Positions 40,625 through 47,321 of a stretch of DNA of 64,000 nucleotides are shown piece after piece. Source of the DNA: Myxococcus guangdongensis (lineage in GTDB: Bacteria; Myxococcota; Myxococcia; Myxococcales; Myxococcaceae); contig NZ_JAJVKW010000013.1 of NCBI RefSeq assembly GCF_024198255.1, forward strand, positions 186,001 to 250,000, given 5' to 3'. Below the pieces are notes generated by a model. It saw only the letters and a list, made by a program, of their open reading frames with translations, had not been told where the DNA came from and did no database searches. How positions within the stretch are numbered: position 1 is the first letter of the stretch; each line of letters opens with the position of its first letter. A program made the translations under genes and the position numbers.

Positions 40625-42952
40625 CTACGGGCGCACCATGTTCACGGGCACAGCCCCCGTGAGGTCCTCCACGCTGTCGAAGAGCAGCTGGCCCACGTAG
40701 TTGAAGTTGTGGGCCCACGCGCCCTTGTCCTTCCGACTGAGCTGGTAGTTGTGCGTGGCCTTCACGAGCGCGGGAGTGAACGGCGCGAACGCGTTGGCCG
40801 AGACGGCCTCCGTCGCGCTGCACGTGCCGTCCTTGTCCGTGTCCTTGAAGAAGTACGGATTGACGTCGCCGTTGTAGCAGAGGCCGTTGCTCGTCACCGC
40901 GCGCATGGCGGCCAGCAGCCGCGCGGCCATGCCGTCCACCTCCGCCCGGAGCAACTCCGTCGTGTTGCCATCGCCGTCGTAGTCCTGGAGGTGGACGTTA
41001 CGAATCTGCTCCGCCGACTCCTGGTCGGCGTGGCACGTCTCACACCGCGTGCGCCACACGTCGGCGATGCGGAAGGTGTGGTTGCTCACGCCGGGGACAT
41101 GGCAGCTGGTGCACTGCGCCCCCCCCATGTGCGAGAGCCGCCCGGCGTAGGTCTTGCCCGGATACTCGTAGCCCGCCTTCGCCAGCGTGCCTTCACGCGT
41201 CCCAGCCGCGGGCATGTAGTGGACGTTCTGGAACCGGGGCGCGCCTCCCGCCGACAGGGCATTGTCGAGCGTCGCCTTCGACGCGCGTCCGATGTGACAG
41301 TTCGCGCAGAGGTTGTCCTGCCCCGGCAGACTCACCGTGGTGCCATCCGGCAGCCACGTGCGCGTGGGGACGAACACGTCGTAGTCCGGCGCGAAGCTCT
41401 CATGGCACGTGGAGCACTCCAGCCCGTTGGCCGTCTCCGGCACCGTCTGCCCCACGCCGTACTGCACGAAGAACCGGTAGCCCTGCGCGCCGCTGTGGCA
41501 GCGTGAGCAGCTCGCCTGCACCGTCTCGCTCGCGTCCCAGTTGCGTGCCGCCTTGCTCGCCCCGTTGAAGTGCCCCGGGTCGTTGCGCACCAGCAGCGAC
41601 GTATCGAAGGGCACTGTCAGCGCGCCGTTGAGCGACTGAACCGAGTCGTGCAGGAGCTGGATGATGTACTTCGCGTTGTGCGCGAACGCGCCCGGGTCGA
41701 CGCGCGCGAGCTGATAGTTGAAGGCGGCCTTCTGCAGCCGCGGCGTCCAGCTCTTGTACGCGTTGGTGCTCACGACCTCGGACGTGGAGCACGTCCCGTC
41801 GCCGTCCCCATCCCGGAACCAGTAGGGATGGGCATTGCCGTAGCAGAGGGGTTGGGCCCGCTCCGCGCCATAGCGCTGCAGGGTGGCGAGCAGCCTGTCG
41901 CGCAGCCCTTGAATCTCGAAGTAGATGCCCTCGGTGCGGTTGTTGTCGCCGTCGTAGTCCTGGTTGCGCGAGGCAATCTGCCGGATGTTCCACGCCTGGG
42001 TGACATCGGTGACGCCCGGATGGCACGTCGCACAGGCGTCCCACCGGACGCGGGTGGAGTGCGGGTCATGGCACTCGTTGCACTTGTCGAAGTCCGGCAC
42101 ATGACGGAAGCGCGTGTCGTAGACCTGTCCGGCGTACTGGTAGCCACCGGCCGCCTGCGCCGCGAAGAGCGTGGCGGCGGCCGGGTAGTAGTGGATGTTG
42201 GTGAAGCCCAGCGCCGCCGAGGCCGTGTCCTCCCCCACTCCCGCGTCGGCGACCTGCGCGTCGATGTCCTTCCCCGCGGCGCGCCCCTGGTGACACACCA
42301 TGCACCGCGCCTCCGCACCCAGCCCGGTGACCTCCTTGCCCGAGGGGAACGTGACGGCCGTCAGCCGCGAGGCCGCGGCGTCGTGGCACGTCTCGCACCG
42401 CACCACGGACTCCGTCTTGCCCGGCGCGTCCACGCGTCCCGGAGCGGAGCCGTCCCCGCCCAGGAAGTCGATGTAGCCCTCCGAGCTGTGGCAGCGCGCA
42501 CACGTCGCCGGCACCATCCCCTCCTCATTCCAGTGGGAGAAGGCCTCCGCCGTGGTGTCCGCGTGCGGCGAGCCCGCCCAGGCCACGTAATAGGGCACCT
42601 GCGACGGGTCCACGCCGGCATCCCCCGCCGACGGGCCGACGACCACCACCGCGTGACGCCCCTCCAACCGCGAGCGCGTCCCGACGACCTTCACCGCCGT
42701 CTCGCCCACGCTGACACCCGTCACCAGCCCCGAGCCGTCCACGGTGGCGATGGCCGGGTCCTCGCTCTCCCACGTGTAGCCGTCATCCGTGGCCTCGCGC
42801 GTGGCGGCGGTGAGCTGGAGCGTCTGTCCCACCAGGACCGAATGCGCCCCGCTCGTGGTGATGCCGGGGTTGGCGGCCTCCAGCTTCGCGCAGGCTCCCA
42901 GCGTGAGGAGGCAGGACAGCCCGGTGGCCAGGAGCAACGTCATTCGTCTCAT
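40625..42952 (-). CDS. Deca-haem c-type cytochrome lipoprotein
   Basis: 775 residues. Lipobox LGAC (Cys21), a bacterial Ig-like (Big_2) domain at about 30-105, then two homologous halves, each with five CXXCH sites: Cys151, 186, 217, 291, 307 and Cys482, 513, 549, 614, 637. Each half ends with 'QDYDGD', a DxDxDG-like Ca loop near a 'GTCS', and an 'AHN' motif before 'QLLxDSV'. Ten haems in two pentahaem halves on an outer-membrane lipoprotein recall MtrC/OmcA, although I see no close sequence match. Probably surface-exposed terminal electron donor. AGGAGG precedes ATG 42952. Confidence 0.88.
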   Translation of the reverse strand: MRRMTLLLATGLSCLLTLGACAKLEAANPGITTSGAHSVLVGQTLQLTAATREATDDGYTWESEDPAIATVDGSGLVTGVSVGETAVKVVGTRSRLEGRHAVVVVGPSAGDAGVDPSQVPYYVAWAGSPHADTTAEAFSHWNEEGMVPATCARCHSSEGYIDFLGGDGSAPGRVDAPGKTESVVRCETCHDAAASRLTAVTFPSGKEVTGLGAEARCMVCHQGRAAGKDIDAQVADAGVGEDTASAALGFTNIHYYPAAATLFAAQAAGGYQYAGQVYDTRFRHVPDFDKCNECHDPHSTRVRWDACATCHPGVTDVTQAWNIRQIASRNQDYDGDNNRTEGIYFEIQGLRDRLLATLQRYGAERAQPLCYGNAHPYWFRDGDGDGTCSTSEVVSTNAYKSWTPRLQKAAFNYQLARVDPGAFAHNAKYIIQLLHDSVQSLNGALTVPFDTSLLVRNDPGHFNGASKAARNWDASETVQASCSRCHSGAQGYRFFVQYGVGQTVPETANGLECSTCHESFAPDYDVFVPTRTWLPDGTTVSLPGQDNLCANCHIGRASKATLDNALSAGGAPRFQNVHYMPAAGTREGTLAKAGYEYPGKTYAGRLSHMGGAQCTSCHVPGVSNHTFRIADVWRTRCETCHADQESAEQIRNVHLQDYDGDGNTTELLRAEVDGMAARLLAAMRAVTSNGLCYNGDVNPYFFKDTDKDGTCSATEAVSANAFAPFTPALVKATHNYQLSRKDKGAWAHNFNYVGQLLFDSVEDLTGAVPVNMVRP

Positions 42953-42978
42953 CGGGTCCCTCCTGGGAGATGTGTGGG

Positions 42979-43398
42979 TCATGGCAACGCGCCTCCAGCG
43001 ATCCACGCCAGGAGCTTCTGGTACTCAGGGGTGCCGTCCGCGTAGATGGCCCCTCCGCCGTGTCCTGCGCCGGCGGCCTTTCGCAAGAGGCGGCTGCCAG
43101 CCGGCGCAGCCGTATCCGTCAGCGCGTTCGACACCTGGAAGTCCGCGTCCGCGTCGCCCGTCAACACGAAGCCCGTGTTGCCCGCGGCGCCTCCAGCGCG
43201 ATGGCAGGACTGACAACCTGATAGCAGCAAGGGATGCGCGTCCGTGGCGAACGAGGGAGCGTCTCCACCACCGTCACTCCCACCGCCGCCGTCACCGCTG
43301 GAGGGCGTGCCCGCGTCGGGGCTCGCGTCTCCGCGGTGGAAGTCCGCGCAGCCCGGGACGAGCAGGAGCGTGAGCAGGAGTCCGAGCCTAGAACTCAT
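42979..43398 (-). CDS. Mono-haem lipoprotein (planctomycete-type cytochrome domain)
   Basis: 139 residues. Lipobox VPGC (Cys17), a Gly/Asp-rich linker, then one domain with CQSCH (Cys62). The segments 'FATDAHPLLLSGCQSCH', 'SRLLRKAAG' and 'EYQKLLAWI' match both haem domains of the upstream porin fusion, so it is a free copy of the same module. The gene overlaps the porin gene by 11 bases and ends 26 bases before the deca-haem gene. Likely sits at the outer membrane and passes electrons between barrel and deca-haem protein. Confidence 0.85.
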   Translation of the reverse strand: MSSRLGLLLTLLLVPGCADFHRGDASPDAGTPSSGDGGGGSDGGGDAPSFATDAHPLLLSGCQSCHRAGGAAGNTGFVLTGDADADFQVSNALTDTAAPAGSRLLRKAAGAGHGGGAIYADGTPEYQKLLAWIAGGALP

Positions 43399-45769
43399 AC
43401 GCCACCACCAGTCGCGTGAAGTCGTCCGGCACCTCGTCCACCTTCTCCAGGTTCCAGAACTGGAAGAGGCCCACGCTCAAGCCCTTCCATCGGGCGACGG
43501 CGCCCACGTTGTGAGCGGAGGCGTCCTCGCGTGTGAGCGCGGTGGTGTCGAGTATCCGCCCGCGCTGGTTGCCGAAGGTGCGCAGGCCCTGTCGATACTG
43601 GAGGTAGAGCCAGTCGGTGGGATGGAAGCGGAGCTGGAGGTAGCTGGCGAAGTGGTAGTAGTCCGCGCCCGGACCGCCGTACCCCTCCGCCTCGCCGCCG
43701 GAGACGTCCGCGCGCAGCAGACCGACGCCCAACGAGAAGCGCTCGAGCACCGGCACACCGCGGGGCCGCCACGAGGCGACATCCAACGCCTGGAGGAACA
43801 GCCTCCGGCCATACCCCAGCGGATTGTAGTAGGCCGAATACCAGAGGCTCAGCGGGCCCCAGGCCCCCCCCAGTCTCGTCCCCACGCCCAACCGCGTCTC
43901 TTCCAACGGCGCGAAGTCCGATTGGAGGTTGAGCACGGCATCGGCCCGCCGGAGCTGATAGCCAGCGATGACGTAGACATCCGCGGAGAGCAGGAACGGT
44001 CCCTCGCGGCGCTGCACGTTCGCGGTCAGCCCCTCGCGAGCGAAGACGGGTGGCAACACCTTCTGGTCGAAGCCCGCGAGGCCGCCATAGCTGTGATGGA
44101 ACAGCGGCTCCGCGCCGAAGGGCACCAGCACCTTGCCCACCTTGGCGGAGAGCCGCACCGGCCAGTCCTCGCCGCTGAGCCGGTAGCCCACCTCCCAGAA
44201 CTGGAGCGACAACATCTCCAGCGTCAGCGTCACCGGGTCCTCGGTGGACTGGCGCGTCAGGAAGAGGAAGTGGTGGTAGCTGCGTAGCGCGTTCGAGGCG
44301 CCCTTCTGGAAGGGCTGGTCGTTGTAGCCGAGGCGCTCGTAGTTGAGGTCGAAGCGCCCGTTGAGCGTGAGCGAGCCGAGCACGGGGAAGGTGCCGAGCT
44401 GGACACCTGGCGGCGGTCCACCCGACGACGCGGCGGGGCGCTCGGCGGGAATCGGCGCCGGGGGAGCGGTGGTGGCCACGACGGGGGCCTCGAATGGTGC
44501 CTCCGCCCCACGTGCGCCCTCGTCAATCCAACGGGCCAGGAGCGCGAGTTCCGCGCTCCCGGGCTCCCACACCGCGCCGCCCTGGTGCGAGTCACCTCGC
44601 GCGCGCTGAGACAGGAGGCTCGTGTCGGCCGAGCCAGGCGTCACCAGCGCCAGCACCGTGCGCAGATGGGCCTCGGGCTCCGCGTGGGCGACATAGCGGG
44701 TGGACCCGGCGAACCCATCCGCCGCATGGCAGCTCGCACATCCCGCGAGGAGCTGCTCGTGGATGCGGGGAGCGAAGCGCAGCGTGTTCGAGGCGACGGC
44801 AGACGCATGCACGGGCTGCGCCCCTGACGCGACCTGAGTCGACGCAGGTGGCGTCGTCCCCTCGCGAGCGACATCCGGAGGTTCCGAAGGTGTCGCCCCC
44901 GTCGAGGGTGGCGACGCGGACGCATCCCCTGCACGAGCGGAAGTCGGAGATCCCGAAGGCATTGCCGCCGTCGAGAGTGGCGATGCGAGCGCCTCCCCAA
45001 CGCGAGCGGAAGTCGGAGCTCCCGAAGGCATTGCCGCCATCGAGGGTGTCGACGCGGGCCCCGCTCCCACGCGCGCGGCGGCGAGGGCCTCCGAAGGTGT
45101 TGCCGCCGTCGAGGATGGCGCCTTGGGCTCCTCGCCCACGCGCGCGGAAGCTGGAGCCCCCGAAGACGTCGCCACCGTCGACGACGGTGGCGGCACGGTC
45201 GCTGCGGGGGAAGGTCCTGGGAGCGCGCCGGATTCGACCCACTTCAGCAACGTGGCGTACTCCGGTGACTCCGCCGCGAGCGACTTCTTGCCCCCGTGCA
45301 GGACAGCGCCAGTCCCCTTCCTCAACAGAGGACTCTGCGCGGCTGCGTCCAGCTTCACGAATCGCAGCGTGGTCTCGTAGTCCGTGCCATCGCCACGCAG
45401 CACCCACTTCGACCTGCCGGCCATGCCCTCCGGGCGATGACACGACAGACACCGGGCCACGAGGATGGGCCGGGCGTCGGCGGCGAAGGTGGGCCCACGA
45501 GGCTTCGGCGCCCCTCCCGTCCGCGGCCCCGACGGAGTCGCCACCGGTGCTGGTGTCGCCTTCGTGGGCGTGGTGGGTGTCACGGAGGTGTCGGGAGCCC
45601 CCGCATCGGCGCTGCCCTCTGGAGCAGGTGGCGGCGTCGGCGGACGCTGGATGCCCAGCCGCTCCTGGAGCTTGCGGCGCCGCTCCTCCTGCGTCTGTGC
45701 GCGCGCGGGTACGACCGCGGCCACCAGGAGCACGCCCATCACCAGCCGGCCCAGGTCAGCGAGGCGCAT
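43388..45769 (-). CDS. Di-haem cytochrome domains fused to an outer-membrane beta-barrel
   Basis: 793 residues. Signal peptide (cleaved after ARA), then haem domain 1 (CLSCH, Cys107), four near-identical 23-residue linker repeats (about 205-296), haem domain 2 (CASCH, Cys344), a Pro-rich hinge, and from about 455 a run of amphipathic beta-strands ending in Phe, as in outer-membrane porins. A single polypeptide thus supplies both porin and wired haems, where Shewanella uses MtrB and MtrA. ATG 45769; overlaps the trihaem gene by 14 bases. Barrel assignment is by strand pattern only. Confidence 0.82.
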   Translation of the reverse strand: MRLADLGRLVMGVLLVAAVVPARAQTQEERRRKLQERLGIQRPPTPPPAPEGSADAGAPDTSVTPTTPTKATPAPVATPSGPRTGGAPKPRGPTFAADARPILVARCLSCHRPEGMAGRSKWVLRGDGTDYETTLRFVKLDAAAQSPLLRKGTGAVLHGGKKSLAAESPEYATLLKWVESGALPGPSPAATVPPPSSTVATSSGAPASARVGEEPKAPSSTAATPSEALAAARVGAGPASTPSMAAMPSGAPTSARVGEALASPLSTAAMPSGSPTSARAGDASASPPSTGATPSEPPDVAREGTTPPASTQVASGAQPVHASAVASNTLRFAPRIHEQLLAGCASCHAADGFAGSTRYVAHAEPEAHLRTVLALVTPGSADTSLLSQRARGDSHQGGAVWEPGSAELALLARWIDEGARGAEAPFEAPVVATTAPPAPIPAERPAASSGGPPPGVQLGTFPVLGSLTLNGRFDLNYERLGYNDQPFQKGASNALRSYHHFLFLTRQSTEDPVTLTLEMLSLQFWEVGYRLSGEDWPVRLSAKVGKVLVPFGAEPLFHHSYGGLAGFDQKVLPPVFAREGLTANVQRREGPFLLSADVYVIAGYQLRRADAVLNLQSDFAPLEETRLGVGTRLGGAWGPLSLWYSAYYNPLGYGRRLFLQALDVASWRPRGVPVLERFSLGVGLLRADVSGGEAEGYGGPGADYYHFASYLQLRFHPTDWLYLQYRQGLRTFGNQRGRILDTTALTREDASAHNVGAVARWKGLSVGLFQFWNLEKVDEVPDDFTRLVVAYEF
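44883..45158 (-). repeat. Four tandem 69-bp repeats inside the cytochrome-porin gene
   Basis: Units begin at 44883, 44952, 45021 and 45090 (each starting like 'CCGAAGG'), exactly 69 bases apart, and a fifth partial unit begins at 45159. Each encodes 23 residues of the type Ser-Gly-Ala-Pro...Ala-Arg-Val-Gly...Ala-Met-Pro. In-frame and variable, so a length-polymorphic spacer between haem domains. Confidence 0.85.
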
Positions 45770-46115
45770 GGCAGGCCTCGCAGCGCATGGAGCTCGGTGC
45801 CTTGGCGGCGCGGCCATCGTGGCAGCTTCCGCAGTAGCGGCCCTCGCGCATGTCCTGATGGGTGAAACCCAGCGGGGCCTGGGGGAACACCCCCGGGTGG
45901 CAGCTGTAGCAACGCCGCGAATCATGGGCCCAGTGCGAGAACAAGGCCGGCGCCGGTGTCTTGCGTTCCTTCAGCGGAGGGAGCCGGACGTCCTGGGGCG
46001 CGTTGACCGCGAGGATGGGCGGCGCGAAGAGCAGCGGCACGGCGAGCACCACCCGCCAGCGCCAACGATGGAGCACGGCCCACGCGCGCCAGGGCCCCGA
46101 GGGCGGAGTGCTCAT
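45756..46115 (-). CDS. Tri-haem periplasmic c-type cytochrome
   Basis: 119 residues. An N-terminal hydrophobic signal/anchor (21-37), then 'FSHWAH', CYSCH (Cys69), CGSCH (Cys95) and CEACH (Cys112) with 'FTHQDM' between, typical of c7/c3-type small multihaem proteins with bis-His haems. It overlaps both neighbours: ATGA with the upstream small membrane gene and 14 bases with the porin gene. Fits a periplasmic shuttle between inner-membrane NapC-like protein and outer-membrane fusion. Confidence 0.88.
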   Translation of the reverse strand: MSTPPSGPWRAWAVLHRWRWRVVLAVPLLFAPPILAVNAPQDVRLPPLKERKTPAPALFSHWAHDSRRCYSCHPGVFPQAPLGFTHQDMREGRYCGSCHDGRAAKAPSSMRCEACHAPR

Positions 46116-46309
46116 AGCGCCTTGCGCTCCTTGAGAACCTTCCAGACGGTCACCACGTAGAGGCCCACCCCCAGCAGCACCAGGGGCACGCCCACCGCCG
46201 TGAACACCACGAAGGTGAGCGGTGACCAGAACAGCGTGGTGAAGAGCTGGACGCACAGCCCCGCGAGCACCAGCAGGGCCGCCCTCCGGATGCGCTTCTC
46301 GTGACTCAT
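46112..46309 (-). CDS. Small two-helix membrane protein of the cytochrome operon
   Basis: 65 residues: basic N-terminus, two transmembrane helices ('ALLVLAGLCVQLFTTLFW' and 'VGVPLVLLGVGLYVVTVW') and a Lys-rich tail. No haem or metal motif. Coupled by ATGA overlaps to the NapC/NirT and tri-haem genes, so a membrane partner or assembly subunit is likely; small proteins of this size accompany NapC-type complexes in several bacteria. Function unknown. Confidence 0.8.
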   Translation of the reverse strand: MSHEKRIRRAALLVLAGLCVQLFTTLFWSPLTFVVFTAVGVPLVLLGVGLYVVTVWKVLKERKAL

Positions 46310-46905
46310 GGGCGTTGCTCCGGCAGCCAGAAGTTCCGCGCCTTGACGCCCTCCAGGTCGTGCGCGACGTCGTGACACGTGAGACACGAGCGCGCGCCGC
46401 CCTGGAGCTCCGCCTGGATGTCCTGGTGCGCGGACGCCTCCAGGAAGCTCCGTGCGTCGCCGTGGCAGTGCAGGCAGTTGTAGTTGGGATACGGCTGATA
46501 GAGCTTCGGCCGCTCGGGGATGGTGCCGAAGTAGTGGACCCAGACGTGCTTGAGCCCATTGAACTTCGCCTTCGCGTCACCGAAGAGGGCGTAGTCCGTA
46601 TGGCACGCGTAACACGTGGTGTCCCGGCTGATGAGCCGCTTCTGGTAGTGCACCGCCGCCAGCGACGCGGCGTTGTCCACGAAGAGGCTCTGCCCGTACG
46701 GCTCCATCTCGTGACAGCCCATGCAGAACTGTGTCTGGGAGGACTCACGGACGCCCACGGCGACACCCGCGCCGGTGACGACCAGCGGGAGGATGGCCAG
46801 GCCCGCGAGCAACACCAGCCGCCCCAGATGGCTCGCGCTCAGGACTCCCGCCGCGGACGCAATCAAGGCGACCAGGACCGCCACGGCGATGACAATCACT
46901 ATCAA
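46306..46905 (-). CDS. NapC/NirT-type tetra-haem membrane cytochrome (quinol oxidase subunit)
   Basis: 199 residues. The long hydrophobic N-terminus (1-50) contains one or two anchoring helices. Four haem sites follow: CMGCH (Cys61) with 'HEMEPY', CYACH (Cys98), CLHCH (Cys144) and CLTCH (Cys174). The pattern 'CMGCHEM' with a first helix anchor is the NapC/NirT/CymA hallmark for oxidising menaquinol. The called start is TTG 46905; the frame stays open upstream, where CTG codons after GGGCGAGG are other options. First gene of the operon, so it probably feeds the downstream cytochromes. Confidence 0.88.
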   Translation of the reverse strand: MIVIVIAVAVLVALIASAAGVLSASHLGRLVLLAGLAILPLVVTGAGVAVGVRESSQTQFCMGCHEMEPYGQSLFVDNAASLAAVHYQKRLISRDTTCYACHTDYALFGDAKAKFNGLKHVWVHYFGTIPERPKLYQPYPNYNCLHCHGDARSFLEASAHQDIQAELQGGARSCLTCHDVAHDLEGVKARNFWLPEQRP

Positions 46906-47069: not shown

Positions 47070-47321
47070 CTATCGCTTGTTGACGAGATGTCGCAGGACC
47101 GAGGTGAGTCCGGAGAAGCGGAACGACGGGTCGATGTATTTCTCGAGCACGTAGAAGGCGAAGTAGTAGGCGCGGCAGAAGGCCCAGATGGCCAGCATCA
47201 ACAGGAGCAGGACGCGCCAGTCGGGCGCCTCCATGAGGAGCAGCGCCGACGACACCAGGCCGATGACGACGAAGAGGAGGGCCTTCACCCACATCCACCG
47301 GTGGGATTGCAGATCGCGCAT
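47070..47321 (-). CDS. Small two-helix membrane protein
   Basis: 83 residues beginning MRDLQSH. Two long hydrophobic helices (about 11-30 and 36-58) flank a short acidic loop; an amphipathic, basic tail follows. Resembles small DUF-type inner-membrane proteins of myxobacteria, but I cannot name a family. Divergent from the TetR gene; the TetR operator lies 32 bases upstream of its ATG, so it may belong to that regulon. Confidence 0.75.
   Translation of the reverse strand: MRDLQSHRWMWVKALLFVVIGLVSSALLLMEAPDWRVLLLLMLAIWAFCRAYYFAFYVLEKYIDPSFRFSGLTSVLRHLVNKR

Follow-up and report, generated by a model that had tools for sequence, protein, structure and literature searches.

Myxococcus guangdongensis carries, on the minus strand of a 64-kb stretch of its DNA (the whole of which is called the window here), an operon of six genes, A to F, which spans positions 40625-46905 (Table 1) and probably encodes a trans-envelope electron conduit, leading across the outer membrane from the quinone pool to an extracellular acceptor. 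Computation established which genes are present, how far they are conserved, how many haems and which candidate ligands they encode, and the families to which A and C belong, besides a probable remote relationship of the barrel. The first-pass annotation of this DNA had described six minus-strand genes, the sizes of their junctions and the number of CXXCH sites in each, and all of these proved exact on recount: successive genes overlap by 4, 4, 14 and 11 bases, a single 26-base gap separates E from F, and the CXXCH sites from A to F number 4, 0, 3, 2, 1 and 10. As 20 of the 23 CXXCH codon runs found in all six frames of the window lie inside these genes, the clustering of haem motifs is not due to chance.

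We propose that A, together with B, would oxidise quinol at the inner membrane, and that the trihaem c7 cytochrome C would ferry the electrons across the periplasm. D, in which a porin-like barrel appears to be joined to two tethered bis-histidine (bis-His) monohaem domains, would then pass the electrons through the outer membrane with the assistance of the homologous lipoprotein E, and, on the outside of the cell, F would offer its ten haems to the extracellular acceptor. We infer the localisation and surface exposure of these proteins, the order of transfer, the passage through the barrel, the direction, which is probably outward, and the acceptor. The barrel crossing is the weakest step of the mechanism, as it would have to proceed without a long haem wire. 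The first-pass annotation had likewise read these genes as an electron conduit, and that reading is partly supported, namely by the conserved cassette, by an OmcA/MtrC-family gene that heads a distant version of it (genome G189), by a multihaem cluster beside a barrel relative (genome G154), by the predicted bis-His ligation and by a barrel that is probably porin O/P-like.

Conservation and selection

A scan of GTDB contig DNA with D returned seven loci, one in Myxococcus dinghuensis, five in Corallococcus and one in an Acidobacteria metagenome-assembled genome (MAG); the last (L007) was rejected as a relative of the operon, since the monohaem domain is all that it shares and lies in a different context there. 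In whole-genome searches, 14 of the 145 genomes of the order proved to have the barrel, as did, with a wider barrel profile, 19 of the 195 genomes of the phylum, 16 of which gave strong matches; F was found in 21 of the 195 at E<=1e-30. Synteny across Myxococcota had been suggested as a check on the first prediction and was borne out. Among the 16 genomes that match the barrel strongly, 14, that of the window included, carry complete sets of the six genes in unchanged order; in the other two, G061 and G065, the operon runs into a contig end, and E, F and part of D are seen. G182 and G189, members of other families within the phylum, have all six genes, and B keeps its position in 14 of the 16 operon genomes, both of these distant ones included. 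The surroundings of the operon are less constant: eight of the 15 flanking window open reading frames (ORFs) tested recur in the vicinity of the operon in G099, a close relative, and none recurs at the seven other operon loci (eight loci beside the window were compared, within the stretches fetched). Across the twelve gene comparisons against G099 and G096, the ratio of non-synonymous to synonymous substitution rates (dN/dS) stays between 0.08 and 0.25, indicating that purifying selection acts on each of the six genes. The conserved order, the differing flanks at seven of the eight loci and the purifying selection on every gene therefore indicate that the six genes act as a unit.

Candidate inner-membrane and periplasmic components

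Hidden Markov model searches recovered the NapC/NirT family named at first pass for A and a c7-type family for C. A, with its four CXXCH sites, matches the NapC/NirT family PF03264 (46.7 bits, cut-off 24.1) and is the sole match to this family in the 11.2-Mb genome; it scores far below the NCBIfam cut-offs for NrfH (40.4 bits, cut-off 134.2), NapC/NirT (37.7 bits, cut-off 310.6) and TorC (32.4 bits, cut-off 478.2). Two hydrophobic segments are seen by eye at its N terminus, the motif of haem 1 reads CXXCHXM, and its TTG start codon aligns with an ATG in L001 (8892). B shows two hydrophobic segments, again by eye, and no haem motif. C, with three haems, exceeds the cut-offs of both the c7 family PF14522 (42.2 bits, cut-off 24.8) and TIGR04257 (51.3 bits, cut-off 40), and matches the PDB entry 3ov0 at E 2.9e-25.

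The decahaem lipoprotein F

F is composed of a Big_2 Ig-like domain (PF02368) and two tandem pentahaem modules of ~320 amino acids, with 38% identity between them (E 9e-57); it also matches PF14522 and has the lipobox LGAC (by eye). From the 21 genomes with F, ten F proteins were aligned (window, L001, L002, L003, L006, L045, L046, L047, L050 and L051), the other nine being 48-91% identical to F of the window. They share exactly ten invariant histidines outside the CXXCH motifs, five in each module, and these are predicted to suffice to give each of the ten haems bis-His ligation. An EF-hand-like loop, searched for with a regular expression, is present in the first module of 10/10 sequences and in the second module of 7/10; the loops contain conserved Cys, and their presence suggests calcium binding. 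F narrowly passes PF22113, which represents domains II/IV of MtrC/MtrF (31.7 bits, cut-off 30), a match of doubtful specificity as A scores 27.7 bits with the same model. The best PDB match of the F repeat profile, largely through haem motifs, is 6r2q_A (E 7.5e-9), an entry given as the MtrAB complex in PMC10654088 (this and the other papers cited are represented by extracts). In the PDB copy used, chain A of 6r2q is labelled cystathionine beta-synthase, and the matched stretches carry several CXXCH motifs. The mature F would begin CAKLEAA, with no Lys at +2 and with Ala at +7, a residue kept in M. dinghuensis; for Myxococcus xanthus, Lys+2 is reported for inner-membrane lipoproteins and Ala+7 for matrix lipoproteins (extract of PMC3222651).

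The haem domains and putative barrel of D, and the lipoprotein E

D comprises a signal peptide (recognised by eye), a first haem domain (D1, residues ~93-184), a variable Pro/Ala/Ser linker, a second haem domain (D2, ~330-422) and a probable beta-barrel (~450-793). Domain alignment, and tblastn searches in both directions between E and the D proteins of relatives, identified D1, D2 and E as copies of one haem domain of ~90 amino acids; the lipobox of E was recognised by eye. A single extra His is invariant in 41/41 aligned D1, D2 and E domains, whereas Met is invariant at no position; because of the ORF filter or contig ends, this alignment lacks E of G096, G058 and G182 as well as D of G061 and G065. 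The invariant extra histidines of F and of D1, D2 and E, together with the lack of an invariant Met, point to bis-His wires rather than catalytic sites. NCBIfam RoxC was tried as a relative of D and E and rejected (14.6 and 20.2 bits, respectively, against a cut-off of 900).

The barrel part of D, ~340 amino acids long, ends in Phe in 10/10 sequences. Its beta periodicity, as z of beta minus alpha, is 2.3 for a ten-sequence profile and 1.8 for the single sequence, compared with 2.3-3.9 for ten porin O/P proteins, 0.8 for F and 0.6 for A; reaching at most the lower limit of the porin O/P range yet exceeding F and A, these values provide modest evidence for a barrel. This part has no match in Pfam, NCBIfam or the PDB, a direct match to the porin O/P family PF07396 is absent in 10/10 barrel members at E<=1, and no plasmid match to it was found. 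Weaker relatives of the barrel occur in G154, G192 and G185 as haemless proteins of 398-489 amino acids, which have no Pfam match above cut-off. The barrel profile matches these haemless proteins, four in number and trimmed before alignment, with a probability of 98.9% (E 1.2e-17; reversed control 0.1%), and the combined profile of the barrel and the four matches ten porin O/P proteins of Myxococcota with a probability of 84.9% (E 6.4e-6, 260 columns), the two reversed controls giving 0.1-0.2%. The porin set was drawn from 10 of 20 loci, those with an ORF over the locus middle ending in Phe. The barrel of D is thus probably a remote porin O/P relative, visible only via bridging sequences, and D is probably a porin that gained two haem domains, its fold class being likewise probable. 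Of the first-pass proposal that barrel and haems form one protein, the two haem domains stand and the barrel is probable, on the strength of the bridged profile comparison, the terminal Phe and the modest beta periodicity.

Related multihaem loci in other Myxococcota

The distant operon of G189 is headed by a gene for a decahaem cytochrome of the OmcA/MtrC family, which lies on the same strand ~10 bases upstream of A (L045:11741-14209) and scores 396.7 bits with TIGR03507 (cut-off 209.3). This cytochrome carries a collagen-like GXX stretch. G154 (L107:2161-8030) has a haemless barrel relative on the other strand beside ORFs with 6, 13, 30 and 5 haems; a haemless ORF of 496 amino acids is also found beside this barrel relative. 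In G150 (L048:6447-17917), 2.7 kb separate a 15-haem relative of F from an 11-haem ORF; after the latter come a haemless ORF of 480 amino acids and a 22-haem ORF, and the locus resembles a Pcc cluster. The ORFs of these loci, and of the G183 locus described below, were delimited by a mechanical gene call.

Comparison with known electron-transfer systems

The operon can be compared with the Mtr/Mto/Pio systems (CymA-MtrCAB), with which it shares a NapC-family quinol dehydrogenase, a periplasmic carrier, an outer-membrane barrel (here a probable one) and a decahaem lipoprotein, besides the narrow and doubtfully specific match of F to PF22113 and the OmcA/MtrC-family gene of the distant version. 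Unlike these systems, it offers no MtrB/PioB match to D (TIGR03509, E<=1) and no separate MtrA-like protein for the barrel. A genome-wide search for MtrB/PioB also found no match, but the control genomes gave none either, so absence from the genome is not shown. F scores 37.3 bits with the DmsE/MtrA model TIGR03508 (cut-off 192.2), and the OmcA/MtrC model TIGR03507 matches neither F nor any other protein of the genome. The parallel with CymA, MtrA/B and MtrC drawn in the first-pass annotation holds mainly in role, D and F failing the NCBIfam models of MtrB, MtrA and OmcA/MtrC; its companion statement, that direct Mtr homologues are not recognised, agrees with these results except for the narrow pass of F with PF22113.

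The Pcc system (OmbB-OmaB-OmcB) likewise clusters a barrel with cytochromes, and occurs within the phylum in Anaeromyxobacter (PMC4245776). According to the same extract, Pcc has a separate periplasmic protein of 5-14 haems and a barrel of 18-22 predicted segments, whereas here haems are fused to a barrel estimated to be smaller and the sole separate periplasmic cytochrome has three haems. The outer-membrane protein GM18_3465 of Geobacter sp. M18 is similar in being a multihaem, porin-like cytochrome in one polypeptide, and is set apart by its description, which places 10 haems in the loops of a 21-segment barrel (extract of PMC4245776), compared with two in N-terminal domains here. Cyc2 also unites an N-terminal c-type haem and a porin O/P-like barrel in one polypeptide (extract of PMC8406198), while D has two haem domains on long linkers and is accompanied in its operon by NapC-type and decahaem partners. 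The motif AXPXFAR[QK][TY], which precedes the single CXXCH of Cyc2 in the extract of PMC8406198, was sought with a regular expression and is absent from D, which has two CXXCH. The operon lacks the defining features of Mtr, Pcc and Cyc2 that were tested, the narrow PF22113 pass aside. As the GM18_3465 fusion was described in 2014 and pcc clusters are known in Anaeromyxobacter, the kind of system is already known and the design is new.

Weight of the evidence and alternative readings

Several observations weigh against an outward conduit that crosses the membrane through D. When the four bridging sequences are omitted, the hhalign probability between the barrel profile and porin O/P falls to 3%, which is not significant; the four bridging haemless porins alone reach 14.9%; and hmmsearch against single porins gave no separation from reversed decoys. 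The AlphaFold models are poor for both D and F (predicted local distance difference test, pLDDT, 34.6 and 29.5) and unfit for a fold search. An estimated barrel of 14-16 strands with no MtrA-like wire inside leaves the membrane-crossing step unexplained, and the termini of outer-membrane barrels are normally periplasmic, according to the PMC8406198 extract, which would place D1 and D2 there. Ala+7 is not conserved in F of Corallococcus (CAKLETP; four sequences) and E does not have it. In G183 (L047:4490-10965), the companions of an F relative are a tetrahaem protein and an Fe-S protein of DsrO-like type, which has a Tat-like start and scores 180.8 bits (cut-off 200). The stretch read there contains no barrel, which means that F is not obliged to act by way of D. 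Finally, the barrel is present in only 4 of the 27 genomes of the genus.

An outward conduit has to be set against three other readings, of which the first retains the whole machinery and reverses it. F, E and D would draw electrons from external Fe(II), Mn(II) or reduced organic compounds and A would act as a quinone reductase, as proposed for Cyc2 and Mto. The layout of D, an N-terminal haem part followed by a porin O/P-like barrel, is that of Cyc2 (PMC8406198, extract), and CymA homologues have been proposed either as quinol oxidases or as quinone reductases (PMC6295460, extract). We nevertheless regard the inward direction as unlikely, since the ten haems of F and the c7 protein would resemble reducers more, and since the Cyc2 motif is absent not only from D but from the six-frame window and the relatives' loci scanned with it, in a search run with no positive control.

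It is far less probable that F acts enzymatically on a soluble substrate such as nitrite, hydroxylamine or a tetrathionate-like compound, with A as its NrfH-type feeder and D as an ordinary porin with haem tethers. The sole PDB match of A at E<=0.01 is indeed NrfH (2j7a, E 0.0045), and the F repeat profile weakly matches two NrfA chains (6v0a, E 0.0051; 3ubr, E 0.0052), largely through haem motifs. The same profile matches the 6r2q chain best, however, where haem motifs again account for most of the match, and these matches together place F loosely among NrfA/NrfB/Mtr-like multihaem proteins. Each of the ten haem sites in F is CXXCH and none is CXXCK, the ten invariant extra histidines leave no obviously open haem, the single PF02335 match of the genome lies elsewhere and is partial, and a conserved fused porin would be superfluous for an enzyme. 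We give least credence to a periplasm-facing redox buffer or reductive-stress system, in which the haem domains and lipoproteins would face inward and the barrel would merely anchor them to the outer membrane; the usual periplasmic position of domains N-terminal to outer-membrane barrels (PMC8406198, extract) and the long Pro/Ala linkers would suit such a system, but the operon of G189 is headed by a gene of the OmcA/MtrC family, whose members are surface proteins in known systems, and Ala+7 is present in F both in the window and in M. dinghuensis.

An outward conduit thus remains the reading that we prefer, and we tentatively suggest, as a possibility still short of an even chance, that it represents a distinct class. 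Bis-His monohaem domains on flexible linkers, instead of a rigid MtrA-like wire, may load a small porin (perhaps ~16 strands) derived from haemless porins, and predatory myxobacteria may thereby hand electrons from respiration to minerals, redox-active metabolites, kin or prey when crowded cells become short of oxygen. If so, some Myxococcus and Corallococcus could respire or balance redox through contact, and an outer-membrane design with no multihaem wire in the barrel would be added to those known, which would make the minimum number of haems needed for the crossing testable. Both genera are regarded as aerobic predators. The first-pass annotation called an extracellular electron route unexpected in Myxococcaceae, and searches of open-licence papers in PubMed Central, judged by titles and the beginnings of abstracts, turned up none on such a route in this family. 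The statement applies less well to the phylum, as Anaeromyxobacter has pcc clusters (PMC4245776, extract) and extracellular multihaem proteins are reported from Myxococcota MAGs of sludge, with Anaeromyxobacter named (PMC11495043, extract).

Table 1 Genes of the operon in the window, with the evidence for each assignment.
Gene	Position	Strand	Assignment and evidence
A	46306..46905	-	NapC/NirT-type tetrahaem quinol dehydrogenase, 199 amino acids, TTG start; PF03264
B	46112..46309	-	membrane protein of 65 amino acids, haemless; 4-base overlap with each neighbour; conserved position
C	45756..46115	-	trihaem c7-type periplasmic cytochrome (predicted), N-terminal signal or anchor; PF14522, TIGR04257, PDB 3ov0
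D	43388..45769	-	fused dihaem porin (probable), 793 amino acids; domain alignment, bridged barrel profile comparison
E	42979..43398	-	monohaem lipoprotein, third copy of the D1/D2 haem domain; tblastn, alignment, lipobox VPGC
F	40625..42952	-	decahaem lipoprotein, 775 amino acids; PF02368, PF14522, internal repeat

Neighbouring genes and other observations

An 8-haem protein encoded elsewhere in the genome (L091:5761-7833) provides the PF02335 match referred to above; it was rejected as a relative of the operon and is apparently unrelated. The TetR gene that flanks the operon in the window is also found in five Myxococcus genomes that do not have the barrel, and in the four of these that were examined it lies beside GFA, with no operon. 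Upstream of A, on the minus strand at 47070-47321, the window encodes a membrane protein of 83 amino acids, which among the eight other operon loci has a match only in G099. A 29-amino-acid match to this upstream protein adjoins the TetR/GFA pair in the operon-free genome G103 (L088:8612-8698).

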